This document shows positions 36,402 through 39,194 of a stretch of DNA of 45,837 nucleotides, piece by piece. Both the position numbers and the translations under genes were made by a program. The DNA lies in NCBI GenBank assembly GCA_018302125.1, contig JAGWAC010000008.1:1-45837 (forward strand), written 5' to 3'. Below the pieces are notes generated by a model. It had not been told where the DNA came from. It ran no database searches and saw only the letters and a list, made by a program, of their open reading frames with translations. Source of the DNA: Candidatus Woesearchaeota archaeon. Its GTDB lineage: Archaea > Nanobdellota > Nanobdellia > SCGC-AAA011-G17 > JACPIM01. Position 1 is the first letter of the stretch. Each line of letters opens with the position of its first letter.

Positions 36402-37046
36402 TTATTGATATCTGTAAATTCTATTTACTGGCTTTACTGGACCGGAAAGCATTTCACGAACTTGCTTTGCTTCTGATATTAATTGGTTTAATAAAACAGC
36501 TGATTCCAAATTTCCTTCAACACTTCCTTTTTTTGGAATAATTCTTGAAATTGAATATTCGTGCCAAGCTAAATATATAAATCCATATAGTACACGCATC
36601 CCGAATTCAAAAATATCTTTTAAATCGCTTAAATCATCATTATATTCTTGTGCGCCAAATCTCTTTTTCAAAGCTTTCCCATATAAATCTATAGTTTCTT
36701 TTAATTCATTAAATTGTTTTTTATTTAGACCTATTTGTTCATTTTCATAATCTCTAGTTTCATCCTCTCGTAAAAATTTGTCTAATGAAAAGCTACTTAT
36801 ATTTGCATTTAAAACATCAAAAGGAAAAGGGAGAGAAATACTTCTTTTTTCTATTCCTCTTATTGCAACCAAAACCTCTGATTCAACTATTACTGATAAC
36901 GCATCTTGGGCAGTTTTAATAATCAACAATTTAGGGTCTTTTTTATTATTTTCTTCTGCTATTTTTTCCAATTTTTTATATAAAGATAATTCACTAGGAT
37001 TTATGTATAATATTCTTTCATCTAAAAATTGAAATTCTTCATCCAT
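36402..37046 (-). CDS. Unrecognised, mostly helical protein, 214 aa
   Basis: An N-terminal alpha/beta-looking third (RILYINPSELSLYKKLEKIA, KLLIIKTAQDALSVIVESEV) is followed by long helices (KKQFNELKETIDLYGKALKK; DIFEFGMRVLYGFIYLAWHE) and a basic tail VNRIYRYQ. There is no signal peptide and no catalytic motif I can name. It is cytosolic by composition. It is followed upstream by a repeat copy and the DUF357 gene on the same strand. No family recognised. Confidence 0.55.
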   Translation of the reverse strand: MDEEFQFLDERILYINPSELSLYKKLEKIAEENNKKDPKLLIIKTAQDALSVIVESEVLVAIRGIEKRSISLPFPFDVLNANISSFSLDKFLREDETRDYENEQIGLNKKQFNELKETIDLYGKALKKRFGAQEYNDDLSDLKDIFEFGMRVLYGFIYLAWHEYSISRIIPKKGSVEGNLESAVLLNQLISEAKQVREMLSGPVKPVNRIYRYQ

Positions 37047-37214: not shown

Positions 37215-37499
37215 TTAATCAACAATAAATAAATTAGAATCATGTGCATCAAAAATACCTAATAAAGCTCCAGCATCCAATAAACCATGAGCGTAACTCA
37301 GGGCTGATATTGCTGTAACTATATCTCCTTTTTTCTTAAAATAGTGGGCATCATCAATATATCTTTTTGCCATATCAAGAATTTTTTCTCTAGCTTTATC
37401 TAATTTTACCTTTTCTTTAGATTCAACAGCTTTTTTATAAGCTTCTTCAGTTAACCTGAAGTAAGTTTCAAGGCGTTCTTCTGTTACTTTGTTTTGCAT
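37215..37499 (-). CDS. DUF357 family protein, 94 aa
   Basis: The conserved pattern of this archaeal family is clear: VTEERLETYFRLTEEAYKKA, KILDMAKRYIDDAHYFKKKG, then DIVTAISALSYAHGLLDAGA and a final LGIFDAHDSNLF. It is a small three-helix protein of unknown biochemical role, conserved across archaea and often near tRNA or translation genes. Its 5' end overlaps the upstream part of the divergent 37494 frame. Confidence 0.88.
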   Translation of the reverse strand: MQNKVTEERLETYFRLTEEAYKKAVESKEKVKLDKAREKILDMAKRYIDDAHYFKKKGDIVTAISALSYAHGLLDAGALLGIFDAHDSNLFIVD

Positions 37500-37589: not shown

Positions 37590-38411
37590 ATGATAAACAG
37601 TAAAAATTTAGAAAAACTTTTAAGAAAACTCTTGAAAAAAGAGTTTAAAAGAGTAAGTTATTTTGCAAAATATTTTATTGAAAATAATCCTAGTGCTAAA
37701 TCTTCTTTAATACTTGGTTCTTATCATTTTTTAAAAAGAAAAGGCGCCTTGAATAAGGATATTGCTAAAAACGCTTCTTTACTAAGAATGGGAAGAATTT
37801 TTTTAGAAGCGAATTATAGATTATTAAGAAAAAAGGGTTTAGAAAAGGAAGATGTAATTACAAATATTAATTTATTAGGAAGAGATCCTGAAAAATTAAA
37901 TTATAATTTTAATAATTTAAGAAAAAAGGGATTTAGCAAGGTGAAAATTGCTTCTAGATCTGGCTTAATTGAGAGAAATAAAGAAACTATTAACAGAAGA
38001 TTCAAGAAATATCCTGGGTTAATGGAAAAATTAAGTGATATAGAGGACGGAAAAAAAGTTATTTTAAAACAACCACAACTTTTAGAGATTTCAGAAGATA
38101 CTCTCGAAGCAAATATAATGTATCTTTCTCATTTTAAAATAAAAACTTTAAATGGAATTTTATTGGGAACTACACCACAAAACAAAAGAAAGAAGATTGC
38201 TTATTTATTAAGAGAATTATTTGATTATAGAAATTTGAATGAAGAGAAGAAAAAAGAGGCTATTAAACAAGCTTATGCTTTTGTAAGAGAAAGTCCAACT
38301 TTATTGGCTGAAAGTTATAAAGTTTTAGACAAAAGAATGAGTAAACTGAGAAGAGAAGTTAAAGTTATAGCTGATTTAGAATACACTGTTGATTTAGAAA
38401 TCTTAAATTAA
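37590..38411 (+). CDS. mTERF-like helical-repeat protein, 273 aa
   Basis: The ATG at 37590 (MINSKNLEKLLRKLLKKEF) is preferred to 37494 because GGGGGA lies just upstream and the longer form would overlap the DUF357 start. The body consists of helical repeats of about 32-35 residues: YHFLKRKGALNKDIAKN..., YRLLRKKGLEKEDVITN..., NNLRKKGFSKVKIAS..., with INLLGRDPEKLNYNFNNLRK and ILKQPQLLEISEDTLEANI resembling the L..P..L......L...I..L...G..-- register of mTERF. The protein is very basic, as expected for nucleic-acid binding. No signal or membrane segment. Homology is suggested by pattern only. Confidence 0.55.
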   Translation: MINSKNLEKLLRKLLKKEFKRVSYFAKYFIENNPSAKSSLILGSYHFLKRKGALNKDIAKNASLLRMGRIFLEANYRLLRKKGLEKEDVITNINLLGRDPEKLNYNFNNLRKKGFSKVKIASRSGLIERNKETINRRFKKYPGLMEKLSDIEDGKKVILKQPQLLEISEDTLEANIMYLSHFKIKTLNGILLGTTPQNKRKKIAYLLRELFDYRNLNEEKKKEAIKQAYAFVRESPTLLAESYKVLDKRMSKLRREVKVIADLEYTVDLEILN

Positions 38412-39194
38412 CAAAACTACTAAGTAGCCTAAGAAACAACCTACTGATAAGAAAGGCATTGCAGGATAAAAATGATTTTTCTTTCCAAAGAAGAACAAAG
38501 CTAAAAGCAAGATGCTTGTTGTAATTGGAACAATTAAAGCTTTAAGACCAAATGATTTTAGAACTGCTGATGCAAACAATAATGGAAATCCTATATCGCC
38601 ACCACCCAAAATAACTGTCTTGGTTTCTTTTTTATTTTTATATGGAATTAATAATCCTGCGAATAATTTTAATTTTGTCTGAAATTTTGCCAACTTAATC
38701 ATATGTTTTGTTTTCCATACAGCTATCATATCATAAATTGAAATTAATATTAATAAAATTGAAACTGAAAAAACACTTAATGAACTTGAAAAAATTGCTG
38801 CTAGGCCACCATAAATAAACAATTCGGCTGCATTATGAATAAAAATATTCGGCCTCAGCACTTTGAATATTGTTACTATTAATGCTAATATTATTGCTAA
38901 TTCCTGTCTTATGAAAACTGAAAATGAAATCAATAAAGCAAACCACACTGACAAGAAAAACCATATGCGCCATAATTTTTCAGCCTGCATTTTTATTAAC
39001 ATTACTGCAAGAAAAGTTACTATTAATATAGATAGAAAAATTCCTACATAAGATGTTTCTTCTTCAAACTGTGGTTTCTCTATATTATATGGTAATTCTC
39101 TGTCGAAATATTTATAACTTATGAAAAGCCCGATATATTGAGCAGAGAGAAATAATAAAATTAAAAGAGCTATAATTTTAAAATTGTGTTTCAT
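38403..39194 (-). CDS. Presenilin-like intramembrane aspartyl protease (GxGD type), 263 aa
   Basis: Nine hydrophobic segments are visible. The catalytic pairs are ISIYDMIAVW (Asp155 in the YD motif of TM6) and LGGGDIGFP (Asp200 in the GxGD motif of TM7). The PAL motif of TM9 is present as YPAMPFLS (PAM). This is the archaeal presenilin/signal peptide peptidase homologue (PSH, DUF1119). It cleaves type II-like transmembrane helices and may clear signal peptides left by the signal peptidase. It overlaps the 3' end of the mTERF-like gene by 9 bases and is divergent from sod. Confidence 0.88.
   Translation of the reverse strand: MKHNFKIIALLILLFLSAQYIGLFISYKYFDRELPYNIEKPQFEEETSYVGIFLSILIVTFLAVMLIKMQAEKLWRIWFFLSVWFALLISFSVFIRQELAIILALIVTIFKVLRPNIFIHNAAELFIYGGLAAIFSSSLSVFSVSILLILISIYDMIAVWKTKHMIKLAKFQTKLKLFAGLLIPYKNKKETKTVILGGGDIGFPLLFASAVLKSFGLKALIVPITTSILLLALFFFGKKNHFYPAMPFLSVGCFLGYLVVLLI

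Follow-up and report, generated by a model that had tools for sequence, protein, structure and literature searches.

A tandem-repeat protein with a predicted mTERF fold in DPANN archaea

Mitochondria and chloroplasts contain proteins of the mTERF family, which grip DNA or RNA and were long regarded as an invention of eukaryotic organelles; some of them act on RNA or as part of protein complexes, as in the case of MTERF4-NSUN4 in the mitoribosome and of plant intron splicing. Hu et al. 2024 (PMC11417379) describe bacterial proteins, the pTERFs, that were found in metagenome-assembled genomes (MAGs) and consist of 3–11 tandem mTERF-like units, with annotated mTERF motifs and, according to AlphaFold, three helices per unit. 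In that study, the bacterial pTERFs, the nearest proteins to have been tested, bind dsDNA (Kd 1.87 nM), the motif being different for two of the members, and all the published pTERFs are classified as Bacteria, mostly Bacillota (PMC11417379). Thus, tandem mTERF-like repeats are already known in prokaryotes, and the view of the initial annotation, in which the mTERF fold is mainly organellar, is no longer current. The archaeal member described here appears to be new: no description of archaeal members was found in the searchable literature on mTERF with archaea or DPANN (titles and abstracts, with subscription papers mostly outside). Compared with the pTERFs by description rather than by repeat sequence, the archaeal protein is likewise prokaryotic and built of tandem mTERF-like repeats, its 3–4 units falling within the pTERF range, and differs in coming from an archaeon rather than a bacterium.

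The gene was analysed in its context within the window, the entire stretch of 45,837 nucleotides from a Candidatus Woesearchaeota genome, where it lies between two genes on the opposite strand:

37590..38411, plus strand: mTERF-like repeat protein gene, 273 amino acids plus stop, recognized with the family profile, AlphaFold and Foldseek
37215..37499, minus strand: DUF357 protein gene, divergent neighbour (PF04010, E = 1.2e-23)
38403..39194, minus strand: presenilin/SPP-type protease gene, convergent, with a 9-bp overlap (PF06550, E = 1.9e-15)

The two Pfam matches bear out the previously proposed identities of the neighbours. The frame is intact from the ATG at 37590 to the stop at 38411; upstream of this ATG, it stays open back to a TTG at 37494, and the ATG was taken as the start, the first residues of the protein aligning with the starts of its relatives. 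The protein is strongly basic, as had been noted before, with a computed net charge of +27 and a pI of 9.99. No obvious partner had been apparent in the window, and a search for a partner gene or operon conserved across the family loci found none. The genes around the repeat gene in the window are ordinary chromosomal ones, as are those around the other family loci, for example, MCM, ArgRS, NMD3 and DUF2070; contamination was rejected on these grounds. A presenilin/SPP protease gene adjoins the repeat gene, or sits one gene off, in the window and in two other loci from different phyla, L080 (976–1806) and L082 (9012–9971); this proximity may be due to chance, given a rough expectation of about 0.3 in the other loci. 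Upstream of the DUF357 gene, the window encodes a 214-aa protein (36402–37046, minus strand) to which no Pfam family could be matched at E 0.001.

The repeat protein itself is organized as follows:

aa 1–51, 37590..37742, plus strand: N-terminal helical segment, partly a degenerate repeat, placed by alignment with the starts of relatives (helices 4–21, 24–31 and 38–50)
aa 52–82, 37743..37835, plus strand: repeat 1, located with the repeat matrix and profile
aa 83–113, 37836..37928, plus strand: repeat 2, located with the repeat matrix and profile
aa 114–144, 37929..38021, plus strand: repeat 3, located with the repeat matrix and profile
aa 152–182, 38043..38135, plus strand: repeat 4, with the mTERF-like Pro signature ILKQPQLL
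aa 183–262, 38136..38375, plus strand: conserved C-terminal domain with invariant alignment columns, ILLGTTPQNKRKKIAYLLRELFDY (AlphaFold helices 189–193, 196–210, 218–234, 236–240 and 243–248)

The internal period is exactly 31 residues: three consecutive sequence windows score 114 at this period, compared to a maximum of 51 among 2,000 shuffled sequences, with periods from 20 to 45 scanned. The helical repeats reported in the initial annotation are thus real, but the period of 32–35 residues given there is not. The units start at aa 52, 83, 114 and 152, the fourth following after a step of 38 residues instead of 31, and the second half of repeat 3 is altered, a change that most relatives show in their final tandem unit. 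The P-x-x-L signature that had been proposed for the repeats is complete in the last unit only and incomplete in the others; the best Pfam mTERF match within the protein (aa 151–186) corresponds to this same repeat 4 stretch. The repeats of the window protein are degenerate, with N, N, R and Q in position 10 and S, N, G and Q in position 12, and score 20–34 versus 60–87 in the clean arrays of its relatives.

AlphaFold predicts an alpha-solenoid with three helices per repeat for the window protein (pLDDT 87.9) and, similarly, a helical solenoid with three helices per repeat for a relative from Micrarchaeota (pLDDT 87.8); within a repeat, the helices span positions ~4–9, 11–15 and 18–30. In the Foldseek comparison of the window protein with PDB, ranks 1–17 are all occupied by mTERF chains (MTERF1, MTERF3, MTERF4 and mitoribosomal mS93), and the same 17 chains lead the matches of the Micrarchaeota relative. 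The best TM score of the window model, 0.60, was obtained with DNA-bound MTERF1 (3mva/5co0), at sequence identities to the MTERF structures of 12–17%. The mTERF reading proposed from the sequence alone is therefore supported by the AlphaFold folds of two proteins together with the PF02536 scores of the relatives, and the predicted mTERF fold of the window protein is well supported by these models.

Profile searches bring the same family to the fore, with a clear difference between the window protein and its relatives. PF02536 (mTERF) is the top Pfam match of the window protein, but at 14.8 bits (E = 0.013) it stays below the gathering cut-off of 23.1 bits; ten relatives pass this cut-off with 25.0–71.8 bits (best E = 6e-20), and four reversed sequences searched against Pfam produced no mTERF match. 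The profile comparison thus speaks for the mTERF assignment in the relatives and falls short of it in the window protein. By sequence, most of the archaeal members also have mTERF as their best-matching general family. A profile of the archaeal family aligns with MTERF3 in a single alignment of 197 positions with 34.9 bits, compared to 34.3 bits for human MTERF3 against MTERF4 in phmmer, a profile being more sensitive than a single sequence. With the same family profile, however, a de novo designed 31-residue toroid reaches 36.4 bits (E = 3e-8), so that scores of this order can be attained by period-31 helical repeats without common descent. Common descent with the organellar mTERFs appears likely, although it is not proven against convergence.

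The archaeal and organellar proteins have in common repeats of three short helices, the solenoid, basic character and, in some of the archaeal units, PxLL. They differ in that the organellar repeats are irregular and about 33 residues long whereas those of the archaeal family are exactly 31 residues long and arranged head to tail; the C-terminal domain of the archaeal proteins is distinct as well, being built around GTTPxxKRxKIAxLLRE. Furthermore, the archaeal family mostly has Ala in place of the Pro: among 113 family repeats, position 11 is Ala in 98 and Pro in 6. The hydrophobic positions 13, 14, 21 and 28 are kept across the family repeats.

A direct search for relatives gave five candidates among 99 genomes, of which two (L002 and L003) are clear members besides the window's own; L004 and L005 were weak and were judged to be non-members upon inspection. 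Scanning the phylum with Pfam mTERF added L006/L023 and L018, two longer proteins whose repeats are clean, the other matches at E≤0.01 (such as L007–L017, L019, L020 and L022) being unrelated proteins. The family profile, built from the relatives and these two clean-repeat proteins, detects the family in 7 of the 371 genomes sampled from the phylum of the window, its own genome included, and in 21 of the 301 genomes from the phylum of the Micrarchaeota MAG, a patchy distribution among small symbiotic archaea. An alignment scan of GTDB contigs located six loci, on contigs titled as Pacearchaeota, Woesearchaeota, Nanoarchaeota and Micrarchaeota MAGs; an earlier protein scan of genome contigs yielded no family loci, and no relatives were found in two genomes of the same family as the window genome. 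Judged by sequence, the window protein is a real but divergent member: a leave-one-out family profile scores it at 188 bits (E = 6e-57), and a repeat matrix trained without it puts its four repeats in the first ranks, far above shuffles. Its C-terminal domain is 43% identical to that of the nearest relative; in a tree of the C-terminal region, it lies nearest to Nanoarchaeota members without support.

All the members longer than 150 aa are basic, and the number of repeat units rises from 3–4 in the window protein to 7–8 in relatives. Among the 26 Micrarchaeota copies, 13 stop no more than 150 bp from the end of a contig, compared to about 2 expected; given this excess, the assemblies are probably broken by near-identical repeats, which leaves the family under-counted. 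In one Micrarchaeota genome (G439), at least five repeat-protein loci (L062–L066, on C32, C8, C26, C24 and C17), several of them cut by contig ends, suggest recent amplification. The paralogues of another Micrarchaeota genome, G414 (L026/L090 and L068), have end domains in common and differ in the number of repeats and in the variable residues. Genome G326 contains a small remnant (L087, 6230–6475) with mTERF-like units (KNPQLLGLAIDTVDAKYDFL), stop codons nearby and the Pro signature kept, probably a decayed copy. The 487-aa member L024/L088 (1643–3103) has an extra N-terminal region of ~200 residues, the 376-aa Micrarchaeota member at L070 is a clean array, and two Micrarchaeota arrays (L067 and L081) consist of 32-residue units, with one residue more (FLRDEMRLTPEKIA), making up a sub-family with its own period.

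Searches beyond the archaeal chromosomes found no relatives of the repeat family in viral contigs and phages, and none in plasmids, which gave only weak avrBs3 and NACHT-protein matches; the window protein had no match in PHROG and none below E 0.1 in a viral fold library. A virus or plasmid origin was rejected on these results.

Members other than the window protein carry near-identical 31-residue repeats, and variation within these arrays is concentrated in a few positions. When repeats of the same protein were compared, with the last, capping unit left out, mismatches within 18 arrays concentrated at positions 10 (0.72), 16 (0.68) and 12 (0.63), followed by 15, 9 and 17, and positions 7, 13, 14 and 24 were invariant within these arrays. 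Position 10 is mainly occupied by Q, N, R, H, L or Y, and position 12 by Q, A, H, E, S or D. These two positions are coupled: Glu or Asp in position 12 accompanies Arg10 in 14 of 17 cases, as opposed to 1 of 75 without Arg10 (Fisher test, 8e-13), an excess that is seen in ten loci and is reached in none of 20,000 within-protein permutations. An arginine supported by an acidic residue suits guanine readout, as in zinc fingers, and by analogy Arg10 with the acidic residue 12 would suit this role in the archaeal repeats.

The conserved Pro of the individual MTERF1 motifs lines the major groove of the DNA, and the bases are read by R162, R202, R251, R350 and R387 (PMC4705650). For comparison with the archaeal repeats, the MTERF1 sequence was taken from PDB alignments, its Pro was set to repeat position 11, and the register of the Pro-less motifs was set by eye. 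In this mapping, which is made by alignment through the Pro, R202, R350 and F243 fall on Pro+1 (position 12), R162 on Pro−2 (position 9) and F322 on Pro+4 (position 15); R251, R387 and Y288 fall on position 20, which is a conserved Thr/Ser in the archaeal family. Accordingly, five of the eight base-reading, -stacking or -flipping residues of MTERF1 map onto the six hypervariable archaeal positions, and the equivalent of the groove-lining Pro has positions 10 and 12 on either side of it. Scored with the archaeal repeat matrix, none of the MTERF1 motifs rose above shuffles, so that this partial match is based on the register given by the Pro and on the ungapped windows that ranked best.

From this coincidence and the predicted fold, we infer DNA as the probable ligand. 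The reading that we favour, with moderate confidence, is a sequence-specific dsDNA-binding superhelix of the mTERF fold whose function would be to regulate transcription or to form a roadblock/terminator. The 3–4 units of 31 residues, each with three short helices, would form by stacking a basic superhelix that the conserved C-terminal domain closes; this superhelix would follow the major groove of dsDNA and bind it in a manner that depends on sequence, like MTERF1 and the bacterial pTERFs, acting at a single site or a few sites of the chromosome. In the better-preserved relatives, the readout would fall to positions 10 and 12 in every repeat, together with 9 and 15–17.

The same fold could be put to other uses or have other origins. 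Binding of RNA by an mTERF-like solenoid, with rRNA, tRNA or a transcript containing an intron as the ligand and a role in processing or ribosome assembly like those of MTERF4-NSUN4 and numerous plant mTERFs, would agree with the basic character of the window protein, and the fold matches MTERF4 in mitoribosome assembly intermediates and mS93 of the Tetrahymena mitoribosome equally well. We nevertheless consider it unlikely: the patchy presence in 7 of 371 genomes argues against a core RNA-processing role, and the hypervariable, Arg-acid-coupled positions coincide with the DNA readout positions of MTERF1. Moreover, dsDNA is the ligand bound by bacterial pTERFs (PMC11417379). Independent arrival at the mTERF fold, by a helical-repeat family that would have grown from HTH-like helix pairs, is rather doubtful in our estimate but has several observations on its side: the identity to MTERF structures is only 12–17%, HTH families also score in the relatives (HTH_38 up to 41 bits), and the significance attained by the designed toroids requires no common descent. 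Yet the HTH matches in the relatives are mostly summed scores with no single stretch passing alone, whereas mTERF aligns across several repeats; both AlphaFold models pick every mTERF chain ahead of other helical repeats; and several members share the Pro signature PxLL at position 11. The window protein has no Pfam match to HTH families, and an array of HTH domains was rejected given this lack of a passing single domain and the precedence of mTERF solenoids among the model matches.

A relationship to TAL effectors, with 31-residue units related to TALE repeats and each reading one base, is hardly credible, notwithstanding several points of resemblance. Both kinds of protein consist of head-to-tail repeats of 31–34 residues with a similar rhythm (GLTPEKIA... 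in the archaeal family, GLTPEQVVAIA... in TALEs) and with variation confined to a few positions; the family profile collects 66.5 bits in sum on TALE repeats of solved structures, and tblastn with one Micrarchaeota member retrieves Xanthomonas avrBs3 at E = 4e-4. This sum, however, is made up of stretches of 14–19 bits, no better than the 18–21 bits of de novo toroids, and the TAL effector family PF03377 does not match the window protein, one relative reaching 18.4 bits against a cut-off of 28. The variable archaeal positions are 9, 10, 12 and 15–17, whereas the TALE RVD (positions 12–13 of the 34-residue repeat) aligns with positions 13–14, an invariant Leu-Leu; there is no TALE structure among the Foldseek matches listed, the top ones all being mTERF, and the genes are archaeal chromosomal. 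Membership among the TALEs was rejected on the predicted mTERF fold together with the invariance of the RVD-equivalent positions. As for the window gene in particular, decay, with both repeat regularity and function lost, would account for the low repeat scores (20–34) and for the lack of a relative in the two same-family genomes searched; this is highly unlikely because the 273-codon frame is open, the C-terminal domain is conserved and the structural repeat positions are kept.

Under the favoured interpretation as a dsDNA-binding mTERF-type superhelix, the degeneration of the window repeats means that features of the clean arrays need not apply to this protein; given these degenerate repeats on a preserved scaffold with its C-terminal domain, the predicted binding site is probably fixed and short. 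A more far-reaching possibility, which we put forward tentatively, is that DPANN archaea use the mTERF scaffold for a natural, modular system of DNA recognition in which near-identical 31-residue repeats would specify the sequence through residues 10, 12 and 16 (with, for example, Arg10-Glu/Asp12 denoting guanine) and would be amplified and shuffled to give new arrays, the window protein being an old, fixed member. With members in two DPANN lineages, an ancient presence of the fold in prokaryotes can be tested against more than one origin. The clean arrays of Micrarchaeota, with their Arg-acid coupling and their variation at a few putatively groove-facing positions, provide a natural data set from which a recognition code for the mTERF scaffold might be read and tested; this scaffold might represent a second modular DNA-binding platform beside the TALEs.
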